From contig JALCHN010000008.1 in the NCBI GenBank assembly GCA_022644775.1, positions 1 to 55,134 of the forward strand: a stretch of DNA of 55,134 bases, in the 5' to 3' direction. Below the pieces are notes generated by a model, which had not been told where the DNA came from, did not search any database, and saw only the letters and a program-made list of their open reading frames with translations. Below are positions 45,893 through 52,522 of this stretch, in pieces. The DNA is from Eggerthellaceae bacterium (GTDB lineage: Bacteria > Actinomycetota > Coriobacteriia > Coriobacteriales > Eggerthellaceae). Numbering within the stretch: position 1 is the first letter of the stretch; every line of letters begins with the position of its first letter. Both the position numbers and the translations under genes were made by a program.

Positions 45893-46945
45893 ATGGCACA
45901 AGCATCTGAATCGACCGCTTCCGCCGAAGCCGCCGCCCCAGCCGACTCGAAGGCGTCGCGCTGGGCTGACAAGCGCTTCCTGCTGCACGCGCTGCGCACC
46001 ACCGTGCGTGCGATCGTGCTGCTCCTGTTCACGGTGGACTGCGTCCGTCTGGCCCTGCTCTACCTCTGGGTGCAGGGCTCCGTCGACGTGAACTTCGGCC
46101 GTCCCCAGCTTTCCGCGGGCTTGTCGCCCCTGTCGGGCCTGTTCGACCTGTGGACCTGGGTGAAAACGGGCCAGGTCGACCCGGCTCTGCCTGCGTCGAT
46201 GGTGATCGTCGTCATCGGTCTGCTCATGTCGATCTTCGCCAAGCGGTCCTTCTGCAGCTGGATGTGCCCGGTGGGCACCCTCTTCGACGCGATGGGCGTC
46301 GTGGGCCGCCGCATCTTCCCGGGCGTGCACGTGAGCCCCAAGGTGCAGCGCGTCATCCACGCTCCCAAGTTCGTGCTGGGCCTGTTCGTGATCGGCTTCG
46401 TGCTCTTCCTGGTGCCCACGTCCACGATCCTCATGGCTTGGAACGCCCCCTACTGGCGCGTGTCCGACATGGCCGTGCTCAAGCTCTTCATCCAACCGGG
46501 CGTTCCCATCGCGGTGGTGGGCCTGGTGGTGCTGGGCCTCAGCCTGCTTCTGGGCCGCAACTACTGGTGCCACGGCCTGTGCCCCCTGGGCGGCATCTAC
46601 GGCATCGCGTCGAAGGCGTCGCCCCTCGTGGTGGCGCGCGACCCCAAGGCCTGCATCAACTGCAAGGCCTGCTCGAAAGCCTGCGGCGCCCACATCGCCG
46701 TCGCCGAATCCACCCGCCCCATCCGCACGGGCGACTGCACGGGTTGCATGGAATGCGTGGCGGCCTGCCCGGCCGAAGGCGCCCTGCAGCTTCACTTCTT
46801 CAAGAAGCCGGTGCCCCTGTGGACGGTGCCGTGTGCTGTTCTGGTAATTTGGATCGCTGTCTGGGTCGCCGCGGTCCTGCTGGGGGTATGGTATGGCACC
46901 GTAACTCCCGAACAGATCATCATGGGTATGCGTACCCTGGGCTAG
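45893..46945 (+). CDS. Membrane-bound polyferredoxin (NapH/YccM-like)
   Basis: A 350-residue integral membrane iron-sulfur protein. Five hydrophobic stretches are visible (about 33-58, 100-118, 160-180, 200-222, 305-330). Two membrane-side cysteine motifs, CSWMCPVGTLFD and CHGLCPLGGIYG, precede a ferredoxin pair CINCKACSKACGAHI and CTGCMECVAACPAEGA near 255-300. NapH-like proteins take electrons from quinol and hand them to soluble redox proteins. Downstream genes include a molybdoenzyme and small ferredoxins, so this may be the quinol-facing entry point. GAGGAGGAA precedes the ATG. Confidence 0.88.
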   Translation: MAQASESTASAEAAAPADSKASRWADKRFLLHALRTTVRAIVLLLFTVDCVRLALLYLWVQGSVDVNFGRPQLSAGLSPLSGLFDLWTWVKTGQVDPALPASMVIVVIGLLMSIFAKRSFCSWMCPVGTLFDAMGVVGRRIFPGVHVSPKVQRVIHAPKFVLGLFVIGFVLFLVPTSTILMAWNAPYWRVSDMAVLKLFIQPGVPIAVVGLVVLGLSLLLGRNYWCHGLCPLGGIYGIASKASPLVVARDPKACINCKACSKACGAHIAVAESTRPIRTGDCTGCMECVAACPAEGALQLHFFKKPVPLWTVPCAVLVIWIAVWVAAVLLGVWYGTVTPEQIIMGMRTLG

Positions 46946-46984
46946 GCAGCCGTGCGCGGCGCCGCCCGCGACGAAAGGACGCTC

Positions 46985-47410
46985 ATGTACGGTTTGAAGA
47001 CCGAAAGCTGCTTCGACAGCGCCCATTTTCTTTCCGAATACAACGGCAAGTGCGAAAACCTCCACGGCCATCGCTGGCGCGTCGTGGCGTATCTGGAGCA
47101 GGAAACCCTGCGCACCGAAGGCGACATGAAGGACATGGTCGTCGACTTCGGTCCCTTCAAGGCCGCCGTGCGCGGGCTCACCGAAGCCTTCGACCATGCC
47201 TTCCTGGTGGAAGAGGGATCGCTCATGCCCGAAACGATCGACTGCCTGCAGCGCGAGGGCTTCAAGCTCATCATGCTGCCCTTCCGCACCACGGCCGAAA
47301 ACCTGGCCGCGTATTTCTTCAACCAGCTGGCCGCCAAGGGCTTCCCAGTCTCGCAGGTCGACGTGTACGAAACCCCCAACAACTGCGCGATGTACCGCGC
47401 CGATAGGTAG
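46985..47410 (+). CDS. queD: 6-carboxytetrahydropterin synthase/6-pyruvoyltetrahydropterin synthase family
   Basis: A 141-residue T-fold enzyme. Zinc-binding histidines are in CFDSAHFL and NLHGHRW, and the catalytic Cys is in GKCENLHGH. VVDFGPFKAAV and a histidine in AFDHAFLV complete the active site, and VYETPNNCAMY near the C-terminus fits pterin binding. QueD makes the 6-carboxy-tetrahydropterin precursor of queuosine. No other queuosine genes are here, so a general PTPS-family call is safest. GAAAGGA precedes the ATG. Confidence 0.88.
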   Translation: MYGLKTESCFDSAHFLSEYNGKCENLHGHRWRVVAYLEQETLRTEGDMKDMVVDFGPFKAAVRGLTEAFDHAFLVEEGSLMPETIDCLQREGFKLIMLPFRTTAENLAAYFFNQLAAKGFPVSQVDVYETPNNCAMYRADR

Positions 47411-47416
47411 GTACTC

Positions 47417-47863
47417 ATGAGAGTCCAGGTGTATACCGACGGCGGCTGCCGCGGCAACCAGGCCCGCACCAATGTTGGCGCGTGGGCGTGCTATCTGGTA
47501 TACGGCCAGCATACGCGCGAGCACTACGGGGCCGAACGCAACACCACCAACAACAAAATGGAGCTCATGGGCGCCATTATGGGGCTGCGTTCAGTAAAGA
47601 ACAAAAACGTGGGCGTCGACCTCTACACCGACAGCGCATACGTGTACAACGGCATCAACCAGTGGGTCTACGGCTGGCTCAAGCGCGGCTGGGTCAACTC
47701 GAAGAAGGAGCCGGTGGCCAACAAGGAGCTGTGGCTGGCGCTGCTCGAAGAGAAGAAGAAGTTCTCCGACCTCACGATCAACAAGGTGAAGGGCCATGCC
47801 ACCAACGAAGGCAACAATCGGGCCGACTTCCTGGTGAACAAGGCCATGGACGAGCTCAAGTAA
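47417..47863 (+). CDS. rnhA: Ribonuclease HI
   Basis: A 148-residue RNase H that cuts RNA in RNA-DNA hybrids. The four acidic catalytic positions are visible: VYTDGGCRGN (first Asp), NNKMELMGAI (Glu), LYTDSAYVYNGI (Asp) and HATNEGNNRADFLV (last Asp, with the conserved His). The basic handle region (WLKRGWVNSKKEPVANKELW) is present. It begins six bases after queD and 17 bases before the molybdoenzyme gene, so it is probably co-transcribed. Confidence 0.95.
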   Translation: MRVQVYTDGGCRGNQARTNVGAWACYLVYGQHTREHYGAERNTTNNKMELMGAIMGLRSVKNKNVGVDLYTDSAYVYNGINQWVYGWLKRGWVNSKKEPVANKELWLALLEEKKKFSDLTINKVKGHATNEGNNRADFLVNKAMDELK

Positions 47864-47880: not shown

Positions 47881-50472
47881 ATGTCGAGCGAGTACCGACG
47901 GGTGCGCACGCACTGCCATGTGGACTGCGGGGCCGCCTGCGCGCTCGAATTCGTGATGCGGGGCGATACCATCGTCCGTGTGGAAACCGATGCGACGCCC
48001 GGCGATTTCCAGGCCCGGGCCTGCGTGCGGGGCCGGGCAATCGACCAGTGGCTCGACGCTCCCGACCGGGTGAATTGGCCCCTGCGCCGCGTGCCCGGCA
48101 CCAAGCGCGGGGAAGGGGCCTACGAGCGCATCTCCTGGGACGAGGCGCTCGACCTGTACGCGCGGGAATTCACCCGCATCCGCGCGGCGCACGGCAACGA
48201 AGCTATCTTCGTGCAGCAGTGCTCGTCGCCCTCGCAGAGCGCGATACGCCACCTGCCCCTCATCCGCCTGTTCAACCTGGCGGGCGGCTGCCTGCTCTCC
48301 TACGGCAACTATTCCAACATGGGGCTTTTCAAGGGGGGCCTGCGCTACACCTACGGGGGCAACTGGGCCGTGCGGTCCTTCCGCAGCTTGCAGGAAGGGC
48401 AGCTCGTCGTCCTCTTCGGCAACGCGGTTGCCGATACGCGTATGGCGGGCGATGGGTCGGTGAAGGACCTCATCGACGCCATCGCCGAAAAGCACGTAAA
48501 GGTCATCTGCATCGACCCGCGCATGAGCCGCCTGTGCGCCAACGGGCGCGCGGAATGGGTGCCGGTGAATCCCGGTACCGATGCGGCCCTCGTGGCGGGC
48601 ATTGCGCACGAGTTACTCGCCGCCGGCCTGGCCGACCGCCGTTTCCTGGACGCGTATTGCGCGGGCTTCAGCGAGGATACGCTGCCCGAGGGCGCGGCTC
48701 CCGGCTCGTCCTACGAAGCCTATATCGCGGGGGAGGGGCCCGATGGCATCGAGAAGACGCCCGCCTGGGCGGCCTCGATCACGGGCGTGCCGACCGAAAA
48801 GATCGTCGAGCTCGCCCATAGCATCGGCGAGGCCAAGCCCTGTTACATCGGCCAGGGGTACGGGCCCCAGCGCCGCGTGAACGGGGAAGCGGCTGCACGT
48901 TCGGTGCTCTTGCTCGCCCAGATGGTGGGCCAGGTGGGCGCGCCGGGCACCAACAACGGGTCGCGCGAGGCCGCCTCGCCGATCGAGATGCCGGGCATGC
49001 CGGTGGGCAACAATCCTATACGCGTATCGTTCCCAGCGTTTTCCTGGGTGCAGGCCATCGAAGACGGGCCCGCGCTCGATCGCCTGCATAACGGCGTGCG
49101 CAACGCCGACCGCTTGTCTGCGAGCGTGAAGATGATGGTCTCCTACGGCAACGACCTCATGGCTTCCCAGCACGGCGACCTCAACCATACGGCGCACGTC
49201 CTGCGCGACGAATCCCTGTGCGAGTTCATCGTCTGCCATGAAGTGGTCATGACGCCTTCTGCGCGTTATGCCGATCTGATCCTGCCCGACCTGACGCCCC
49301 AGGAAACCCATAGCCTCACGGCGACGGGGGAGAACTGCCGGTCTTGCGGGCTTGTGTTCGGCTCGCCCATTCGTCGGCCTCAGTTCGAGCGTCGCGACCT
49401 CTACGACGTGTGCGCCGACCTTGCCCGCCGCTTGGGCGTGGAAGAGGCCTTCACGGAGGGACGCACGCGCCGCGACTGGCTTGAATACGTGTATAGGAAA
49501 TTCTGTGGCGAGATGGCGGGCGCACCTGGCTTCGAGCAAATGCCCACCTACGACGAAGGCGAGCGCATCGGCTTTTGGAAGACCGCGACGCCTGCGGAGG
49601 CCGCCTCTGAGGATTTCCTTGACGACCCTGCCGCCCATCCGCTCCCTACGCGTACGGGCAAGATTCAGGTCTATGCGCCTGAAATCGCCGAACGCATCCA
49701 GGAAAACCCTGCTCTCGCATCGACCGTTTCGCCGTTGCCTATCTACATACAGGAATACGGCGAACGCGATGATGCTGCACCGGGCACCTTCGATGTGTTC
49801 GCCTTCCATACCTCGGCGCGCACCCATTCCACCTTCGGCAACGTACCCGTCCTGCGCGACGTGGCGCCCGATGCCCTGTGGATCAACGCGGAAGACGCGC
49901 GTGCGCGGGGCATCGGCGAAGGCGATATGGTGCGTGTCGTCAACGAGCGGGGGAGCGTGGTGATCCCCGCTCATCCCACGGCGCTCATCTGCCGCGGTTC
50001 GGTTGCGATGCAGGAGGGTGCCTGGCCCGACCTGGCGGTCGACCGCGACGGGCGGGGGACGATCAACGACCTCACGAGCTTCGCCGAAGCGCCTCTTTCG
50101 CACGGCAACGCCCAGCATTCGGCCCGCGCCTGCGTCGAGCTCGTTGCGCATGCCGCCCTAAACGCCGCCTCCCCGGCACCCACTGGCGGTCGCGGCTCGC
50201 GTGCGGTCGTGTGCGAGCCGGTGCGCTGCACGGGGTGCGCGGCCTGCACGGTCGCCTGCGCCGACGCCCACCATTGCGCAGCGGATGAGGCCCGCATCAA
50301 AGTGGTTGCGCGCGAATCGACGCGCGCCGGGGAGCCGGGTCTTGCCCTGGTCGCCGTGGCGCGGCCCGGCTGCGACCGGTGCGCTTCGGTCGTGCCCGCT
50401 GCGGCCGGCCCCCTCTGCGTGGCCGCCTGTCCCACGCGCGCCCTGCGCGTTCCCTCAATGGAAAGAAGGTAG
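47881..50472 (+). CDS. DMSO-reductase-family molybdoenzyme fused to a DmsB-like ferredoxin domain, cytoplasmic
   Basis: An 863-residue protein. The N-terminal [4Fe-4S] site is C-x3-C-x3-C-x27-C at Cys 12, 16, 20 and 48 (CHVDCGAAC ... RACVRGR), as in DmsA. The molybdenum ligand is probably Ser 145 in YGNYSNMG. The bis-guanine-dinucleotide domains follow, ending near residue 755. The last 95 residues are a ferredoxin-like domain, CTGCAACTVAC, then CDRCASVV and CVAACPTRAL, as in DmsB, fused in one chain. There is no twin-arginine signal: the Fe-S site starts 12 residues in. So, unlike exported DmsABC, this should act in the cytoplasm. The substrate is unknown. No DmsC anchor or chaperone gene is beside it. 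A dicluster ferredoxin gene follows at two bases. Confidence 0.9.
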   Translation: MSSEYRRVRTHCHVDCGAACALEFVMRGDTIVRVETDATPGDFQARACVRGRAIDQWLDAPDRVNWPLRRVPGTKRGEGAYERISWDEALDLYAREFTRIRAAHGNEAIFVQQCSSPSQSAIRHLPLIRLFNLAGGCLLSYGNYSNMGLFKGGLRYTYGGNWAVRSFRSLQEGQLVVLFGNAVADTRMAGDGSVKDLIDAIAEKHVKVICIDPRMSRLCANGRAEWVPVNPGTDAALVAGIAHELLAAGLADRRFLDAYCAGFSEDTLPEGAAPGSSYEAYIAGEGPDGIEKTPAWAASITGVPTEKIVELAHSIGEAKPCYIGQGYGPQRRVNGEAAARSVLLLAQMVGQVGAPGTNNGSREAASPIEMPGMPVGNNPIRVSFPAFSWVQAIEDGPALDRLHNGVRNADRLSASVKMMVSYGNDLMASQHGDLNHTAHVLRDESLCEFIVCHEVVMTPSARYADLILPDLTPQETHSLTATGENCRSCGLVFGSPIRRPQFERRDLYDVCADLARRLGVEEAFTEGRTRRDWLEYVYRKFCGEMAGAPGFEQMPTYDEGERIGFWKTATPAEAASEDFLDDPAAHPLPTRTGKIQVYAPEIAERIQENPALASTVSPLPIYIQEYGERDDAAPGTFDVFAFHTSARTHSTFGNVPVLRDVAPDALWINAEDARARGIGEGDMVRVVNERGSVVIPAHPTALICRGSVAMQEGAWPDLAVDRDGRGTINDLTSFAEAPLSHGNAQHSARACVELVAHAALNAASPAPTGGRGSRAVVCEPVRCTGCAACTVACADAHHCAADEARIKVVARESTRAGEPGLALVAVARPGCDRCASVVPAAAGPLCVAACPTRALRVPSMERR

Positions 50473-51073: not shown

Positions 51074-52522
51074 GTGGTCACCATCGCTACCGAACAAGCG
51101 CCCGCCGTCGCGGGCAACCCCCAGCGCGAAAAATTCGCCTCGCGCCTGGGCTTCATCCTCATCTCTGCCGGCTGCGCGATCGGCCTGGGCAACGTCTGGC
51201 GCTTCCCCTACATCACCGGCGAATACGGTGGCGCCGCCTTCGTGCTCATGTATTTGGTCTTCCTGGTCATTCTGGGCCTGCCCGTGATGGTCATGGAATT
51301 TTCGGTGGGCCGCGCGAGCCAGAAGAGCGCCGCGCTCGCCTTCGACAAGTTGCAGCCCAGCGGCCGCTTCCACTGGTTCGGCTGGTGGGGCTACATCGGC
51401 TGCCTGGTCCTCATGATGTTCTACACCACGGTCTGCGGTTGGATGCTCGCCTACATCGTCAAGCTCGGCGTGGGCGAATTCAACGGGCTCGACGCCGCGG
51501 GCATCGGCGAGCAGTTCAACGTGTTCCTGGCCGACCCCGTGCAGCAGGTGGGCTGGATGCTCGTCGCCTGCCTGCTCGGCTTCCTCGTGGTGAGCTTGGG
51601 CCTGCAGAAGGGCGTGGAACGCATCACCAAGGTCATGATGGTGTGCTTGCTCGGCATCCTGGTGGTGCTCGTCTTCCGCGCCGTCACCCTGCCCGGCGCC
51701 GAAGGGGGCCTGAAGTTCTACCTGGTGCCCGATTTCGGCCATCTATTCGCCGGCGACACGCCCGCCGAGCAGTGGGCCAACTTCGGCGACGCGGCCTACG
51801 CGGCCATGGGCCAGGCCTTCTTCACCCTGTCGCTGGGCATTTCGGCCATGGAGGTCTTCGGCAGCTACATCGGCAAGGACCACTCGCTCACCGGCGAGGC
51901 CCTGCGCATCATGGGGCTCGACACCTTCGTCGCGATCATGGCCGGCCTCATCATCTTCCCGGCCTGCTTCGCCTTCGGCGTGAATCCGGGGCAGGGGCCC
52001 GCGCTCGTGTTCGTCACGCTGCCGAGCGTCTTCGACCAGATGCCCTTGGGCCAGCTGTGGGGCGCCCTCTTCTTCGTGTTCATGAGCTTCGCGGCCCTGT
52101 CGACGATCATCGCGGTATTCGAGAACCTCGTGGCCTTCACGATCGACAAGTGGGGCATCTCGCGCAAGCGGGCCGTCGCCCGCACGGCGGTGCTCGTCGT
52201 GATCCTCAGCCTGCCTTGCGCGCTCGGCTTCAACGTGTGGAGCGGCGTGACCCTGCCCGGCATCGGCGACATCCAGTCGATCGAGGACTTCGTGGTGTCG
52301 AACAACCTTCTGCCGCTCGGCAGCTTGATCTACGTGATCTTCTGCGTGACGAAGAAGGGCTGGGGCTGGGACAACTTCATCGCGGAAGCAGACGCCGGCA
52401 ACGGCGTGAAGTTCCCGGCCCGCATCCGCGGCTGGGTCACCTTCGGCATCCCCGCTCTCATCCTGGTCATCTTCGTGATGGGCTACATCCCGAAGATCGC
52501 CGTGTGGGCGGGCCTGGCGTAA
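51074..52522 (+). CDS. Sodium-dependent NSS-family amino-acid transporter
   Basis: A roughly 482-residue secondary transporter of the neurotransmitter:sodium symporter family (LeuT/MhsT type) with 11-12 helices. The first-helix signature SAGCAIGLGNVWRFPYITGE carries the unwound substrate- and Na+-binding site. VMEFSVGRASQKSA and the helix-6 region AFFTLSLGISAMEVFGSYI follow. Substrate is probably an amino acid, perhaps hydrophobic. The start is uncertain: the GTG at 51074 has AAGGA only two bases away, and the conserved region begins 18 codons later. Confidence 0.88.
   Translation: MVTIATEQAPAVAGNPQREKFASRLGFILISAGCAIGLGNVWRFPYITGEYGGAAFVLMYLVFLVILGLPVMVMEFSVGRASQKSAALAFDKLQPSGRFHWFGWWGYIGCLVLMMFYTTVCGWMLAYIVKLGVGEFNGLDAAGIGEQFNVFLADPVQQVGWMLVACLLGFLVVSLGLQKGVERITKVMMVCLLGILVVLVFRAVTLPGAEGGLKFYLVPDFGHLFAGDTPAEQWANFGDAAYAAMGQAFFTLSLGISAMEVFGSYIGKDHSLTGEALRIMGLDTFVAIMAGLIIFPACFAFGVNPGQGPALVFVTLPSVFDQMPLGQLWGALFFVFMSFAALSTIIAVFENLVAFTIDKWGISRKRAVARTAVLVVILSLPCALGFNVWSGVTLPGIGDIQSIEDFVVSNNLLPLGSLIYVIFCVTKKGWGWDNFIAEADAGNGVKFPARIRGWVTFGIPALILVIFVMGYIPKIAVWAGLA

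Follow-up and report, generated by a model that had tools for sequence, protein, structure and literature searches.

How does a DMSO-reductase-type enzyme work when it has neither a signal for export nor a partner to anchor it in the membrane? The question is raised by a gene within the window, by which we mean the whole stretch of 55,134 nucleotides of Eggerthellaceae DNA analyzed here. Enzymes of the DMSO reductase family are greatly expanded in the gut Coriobacteriia, and most of them have no known substrate. The gene lies on the forward strand at 47881..50472, beginning with an ATG at 47881 and ending with a TAG stop at 50470-50472. It encodes a single chain of 863 amino acids lacking a Tat signal, in which a DmsA-type catalytic part (aa 1-755) is followed by a two-cluster 4Fe-4S module (about aa 774-858). 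A preliminary description had read this as DmsA- and DmsB-like modules in one chain. The single reading frame stands, but the module amounts to about half of a DmsB, with cysteine groups I and IV rather than all four. Among the genomes searched the sole close relative of the window's genome is Hugonella massiliensis (Eggerthellaceae), and the two species are compared throughout.

The catalytic part has the three molybdopterin-oxidoreductase domains in their customary order. In Pfam these are Molybdop_Fe4S4 (aa 7-56), Molybdopterin (PF00384; aa 63-516, forward strand 48067..49428) and Molydop_binding (PF01568; aa 642-747, forward strand 49804..50121). The chain scores 739.3 bits against the NCBIfam profile TIGR02166 (dmsA_ynfE) over residues 7-753, where the curated cut-off is 777.7 bits; with this full-length near miss it is classed by sequence as a divergent relative of DmsA/YnfE, outside TIGR02166 itself. 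The FS0 cluster motif C12-x3-C16-x3-C20...C48 (forward strand 47914..48024) is invariant in all 35 aligned relatives. So is Ser145 (forward strand 48313..48315), the probable molybdenum ligand, which aligns with Ser205 in the 814-residue record of E. coli DmsA; we take this to be the published ligand Ser176 in an older numbering. One departure is seen in the alignment, where the WHDADM motif that is conserved in the relatives reads WPDL in both Hugonella chains. A full-length structure model gives a confident catalytic fold, with MtsZ and DMSO/TMAO reductases as the top structural matches; there is no DmsA structure among the matches listed, and such matches are expected for any relative of DmsA. 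The E. coli DmsA row was left out of the alignment behind this model, in which the fused module is poorly modelled (pLDDT <50).

The module contains eight cysteines in two groups on the forward strand. Group I comprises C783, C786, C789 and C793 within CTGCAACTVAC (50227..50259), and group IV comprises C831, C834, C846 and C850 within CDRC-x11-CVAAC (50371..50430). When the module is aligned with DmsB, no counterpart of groups II and III is seen. Pfam places a 4Fe-4S dicluster domain (Fer4_9) at aa 782-854, below threshold, and the DmsB profile TIGR02951 (NCBIfam) gives a weak match of 23 bits over residues 831-858, against a cut-off of 214.1. Having two of the four cysteine groups and falling short of the profile cut-off, the module is not, on these measures, a DmsB. 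FdnH and NarH are examples of B subunits with four clusters; there, the two clusters closest to the catalytic subunit are bound by groups I and IV, and the two closest to the membrane by groups II and III. When the module is modelled alone the mean pLDDT is 69, and the model aligns with FdnH (91 residues across 29-194, Z 6.8), with PsrB (89 residues across 4-148, Z 5.8) and also with HycB, the Z scores being moderate overall at 5.8-7.2. Since so few residues align across such wide spans, the module appears to skip the middle half of a B subunit.

What, then, are the closest relatives of the module? When the module by itself is used as query, separately encoded proteins of 108-144 residues outrank any DmsB (46 versus about 28 bits). 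In Coriobacteriia these small subunits are encoded directly downstream of molybdenum enzymes, nearly all of which lack a Tat motif. Nine columns, seven of them cysteines, are invariant over the 21 rows of the module alignment. With groups I and IV and a core of about 90 residues, the module would thus be placed with the two-cluster 4Fe-4S small subunits of soluble molybdenum enzymes. A set of 137-144 amino acids among these scores 93 bits against DmsB, and its partners are Tat-less DmsA-like chains of 856 residues (L179 3727-6720, L180 1399-4404, L173, L187 and L189); soluble pairs of this kind apparently recur in Coriobacteriia. The arrangement of a Tat-less enzyme with a small iron-sulfur subunit agrees with that published for soluble dehydroxylases of Gordonibacter (PMC7028382). 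A plain internal deletion of DmsB was considered as the source of the module and rejected, given the better match to the stand-alone subunits. In the module tree the Dms-type fused modules are not placed with support inside either DmsB or the small subunits, while the small subunits outscore DmsB, so that an origin of the module in either would be tentative. In layout, the chain in the window is best described from its sequence as a fused version of the soluble two-part arrangement, built on a catalytic chain of the DmsA clade.

The absence of a Tat signal and of a membrane anchor had both been claimed in the preliminary description, and both are borne out. The RNase HI gene ends at 47863, just 17 bases ahead of the ATG, leaving no room for a longer start, and no twin-arginine or hydrophobic stretch is found in frame upstream of 47881, where the frame is simply the wrong frame of RNase HI. 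The gap is similarly short in H. massiliensis, whose chain also lacks the signal. Neither a separate four-cluster DmsB nor DmsC is encoded beside the fused gene. This is plainly different from the exported DmsABC enzymes of the relatives, as had been proposed. A Tat motif is present in 48 of the 51 relatives without the fusion (L050 and L154 being called by eye), and 49 of the 51 have a separate DmsB-like neighbour; the 51 are the 56 DmsA-type loci less those of Hugonella, the fused chain of a further genome (G045) and one duplicate. In the catalytic tree the Hugonella pair is nested among ordinary DmsABC systems, to which it is 47-52% identical. With most unfused relatives keeping Tat and DmsB, and the pair so nested, the loss of Tat, DmsB and DmsC in Hugonella is a derived state. 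A bare DmsA-type chain of 767 amino acids without Tat, DmsB or DmsC was also observed in another genome (L152/L161, G043:C14; L161 6699-9002), immediately after an operon of Psr type that encodes an NrfD-like membrane protein.

How general is the fusion? H. massiliensis (L021/L025) has the same fused chain at 79% identity, with no stop between the parts, and the fusion is present in a separate public assembly, LN908986.1. The two species are well diverged at this locus, with dS of about 0.9; by the Nei-Gojobori method dN/dS comes to 0.14 in the catalytic part and 0.22 in the fused module, all eight of whose cysteines are kept. On these ratios the Hugonella fusion is held under purifying selection, the module included. 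Beyond the genus, the same kind of fusion is found in a Tat-less DmsA-type chain of 932 amino acids from another family (L036, in G045). On the catalytic tree the fused state must be placed twice, the lineages being joined in 0% of bootstraps. The Hugonella pair sits on a long branch (1.49), and both it and the G045 chain are long-branched with odd composition; as such features tend to draw lineages together, their separation is if anything conservative. A single common fusion event was rejected on this tree, with the long branches and composition borne in mind. The Dms-type fused modules nevertheless group weakly in the module tree (77/66), so that the module may have been captured either a single time or on two occasions.

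These are the only three DmsA-type fused chains found in about 400 Coriobacteriia genomes, and the top matches from 396 genomes at class level and 396 at phylum level include no others. A pattern-based search of GTDB contigs reaches close relatives only, and fused chains may exist outside the Actinomycetota. A full-text literature search found no described DmsA-DmsB fusion. A third fusion was seen in another subfamily, where a Tat-less molybdenum enzyme of 900 amino acids carries a C-terminal two-cluster module (L178, G379:C57, 6259-8961). At the G045 locus an ABC transporter with permease and ATPase, NitT/SsuB-like by eye, is divergent from the fused gene (L036 4600-6355, G045:C142), and is possibly an importer of the substrate of that enzyme.

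The fused gene is followed on the same strand by that of a 104-residue 2x[4Fe-4S] ferredoxin, P0002 (50475..50789), 2 bases past the stop. In H. massiliensis the two genes overlap by 11 bases, and they are probably co-translated. The preliminary description had pointed to this adjacent ferredoxin; it is indeed a two-cluster protein, with two CxxCxxCxxxCP motifs, and its family can now be corrected. Over residues 10-103 it matches the C-terminal domains of PF00248 proteins at 40-47%, the aldo/keto reductase domain itself being absent. Matches occur in 251 of 396 genomes of the class, the best homologues sit in frames about 380 residues long, and those inspected are C-terminal ferredoxin domains of aldo/keto reductases. 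P0002 is thus classed, by homology, as a stand-alone relative of the ferredoxin domain of iron-sulfur aldo/keto reductases. Its dN/dS between the Hugonella species is 0.10, and this genus is the only one, of those covered by the search, in which it is encoded on its own. The one candidate elsewhere, of 99 amino acids (G027:C4), was dismissed as the end of an aldo/keto reductase broken by a frameshift; at that locus (L160 6549-7717) an iron-sulfur aldo/keto reductase is apparently split by a frameshift ahead of its ferredoxin domain. No copy of P0002 adjoins the fused gene of G045, so not every fused enzyme of this kind depends on the ferredoxin.

The two genes close a run on the forward strand that begins with a NapH-like membrane polyferredoxin (45896..46945) and continues with a gene of the 6-pyruvoyl-tetrahydropterin-synthase family (46952..47410) and RNase HI (47417..47863), directly upstream of the fused gene. 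Both Hugonella species have the five genes closely spaced and in the same orientation. A Na+:neurotransmitter-symporter-family transporter (PF00209; forward strand 51074..52522) lies 284 bases downstream of P0002, again conserved in H. massiliensis. A TATAAT-like box precedes its start by about 55 bases, so that it probably has its own transcript.

Taken together, we think it reasonably probable that the fused chain is a soluble, cytoplasmic relative of DmsABC fed by P0002, and most plausibly a reductase of S- or N-oxides. A DmsA-type chain would have lost its Tat signal, four-cluster DmsB and DmsC anchor, and have a two-cluster C-terminal module instead. Electrons would most likely enter from P0002, as its adjacency suggests, and pass through the two fused clusters to FS0 and thence to molybdenum, if the clusters are arranged as we suppose. 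Reduction would then occur in the cytoplasm at a serine-ligated Mo-bisPGD, and clade and predicted fold point most plausibly to a small S- or N-oxide as substrate. The way the chain is built agrees with the earlier reading of a soluble, ferredoxin-linked reaction, donor and substrate being inferred. In view of the change from WHDADM to WPDL and the long branch, the enzyme may act on a substrate other than that of DmsA.

An enzyme facing the cytoplasm might still be respiratory, if the NapH-like polyferredoxin oxidized quinol and passed electrons through P0002 to the fused chain. The NapH-like gene heads the same closely spaced run in both species, and there is a precedent in that NapG/NapH-like ferredoxins are co-induced with the dopamine dehydroxylase of E. 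lenta and have been modelled onto the same enzyme (PMC11887054). Yet synteny at the locus is generally conserved in the genus, so that adjacency is weak evidence, and no NapG partner is present at the Hugonella locus. The NapH-like gene is moreover no fixed partner, since in other genera (G009, G010, G018) its homologues have different neighbours, with no molybdoenzyme among them. We regard this quinol-linked route as rather unlikely.

The substrate could alternatively be aromatic or catechol-like, the enzyme being a soluble dehydroxylase or transhydroxylase instead of an S- or N-oxide reductase. Gordonibacter has soluble catechol dehydroxylases of the DMSO reductase family that lack a Tat signal and have a small 4Fe-4S partner protein (PMC7028382), and in Coriobacteriia relatives of the fused module occur as small two-cluster subunits encoded beside Tat-less molybdenum enzymes. 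The catalytic chains of those pairs are, however, only about 23-27% identical to that of the window, which falls in the DmsA clade with ordinary DmsABC enzymes as its nearest relatives, and a dehydroxylase seems quite improbable. It is far harder to believe that the fusion is an accident, whether a lost stop codon, an assembly error or a gene in decay. The rarity of such chains in Coriobacteriia is what favours an accident, but a stop codon lost in this genome alone, an explanation that the preliminary description had allowed for, is ruled out along with misassembly by the H. massiliensis fusion in its independent assembly and by purifying selection that extends to the module and its cysteines.

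Returning to the ferredoxin-fed oxide reductase, neither MsrA (PF01625) nor MsrB (PF01641) was detected in the whole genomes of the two Hugonella species (G000, G001). The lack is consistent with a requirement for some other sulfoxide reductase, but it is only a lead because several unfused relatives lack both enzymes too; for the same reason their absence was discarded as a marker of the fusion. A more speculative proposal, to which we would give only a small chance, is that DmsA-type reductases became cytoplasmic on more than one occasion, each time giving up Tat, DmsB and DmsC and gaining a two-cluster module within the chain, and that the Hugonella enzyme, with its aldo/keto-reductase-derived ferredoxin, takes the place of MsrA and MsrB in repairing an S-oxide of the cytosol, for instance methionine sulfoxide or biotin sulfoxide. 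If the substrate is a cytosolic sulfoxide, the enzyme would bear on how anaerobes lacking MsrA and MsrB handle oxidized methionine. An exported quinol-linked enzyme turned into a self-contained cytoplasmic one would show that the electron input of the family is exchangeable, and such a chain with its ferredoxin would be easier to produce and test for activity than a membrane-bound complex.

The elements of this enzyme can be recognized in several known systems. ActB of alternative complex III likewise has A-like and B-like modules in one chain, but it lies in a membrane complex, without Moco in the A-like part and with four cluster sites retained in the B-like part. Biotin sulfoxide reductase BisC is a cytoplasmic single-chain S-oxide reductase with serine-ligated molybdenum. 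MtsZ, the top structural match, is also a single-chain S-oxide reductase with a serine ligand, though periplasmic, and both it and BisC lack a fused iron-sulfur module. The DmsABC and YnfEFGH DMSO and selenate reductases (TIGR02166) share the catalytic chain, the FS0 motif and the serine at the molybdenum position, and include the closest catalytic relatives; the chain of the window differs in lacking Tat, the four-cluster DmsB and DmsC, and in its C-terminal two-cluster module. The pairs at L179, L180, L173, L187 and L189 have no Tat signal on the chain starts seen, cysteine groups I and IV only and the same CxxC-x11-CxxxCP spacing, but are made of two genes, an 856-residue chain and a 137-144-residue subunit, with about 27% catalytic identity. 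Soluble enzymes of the family with a small iron-sulfur partner are already known from Gordonibacter (PMC7028382). Its catechol dehydroxylases are, like the Hugonella enzyme, Tat-less proteins of the Coriobacteriia; their partner is encoded by a separate gene and their catalytic chains belong to another subfamily, whereas in the window the iron-sulfur module is fused to a chain of the DmsA clade.
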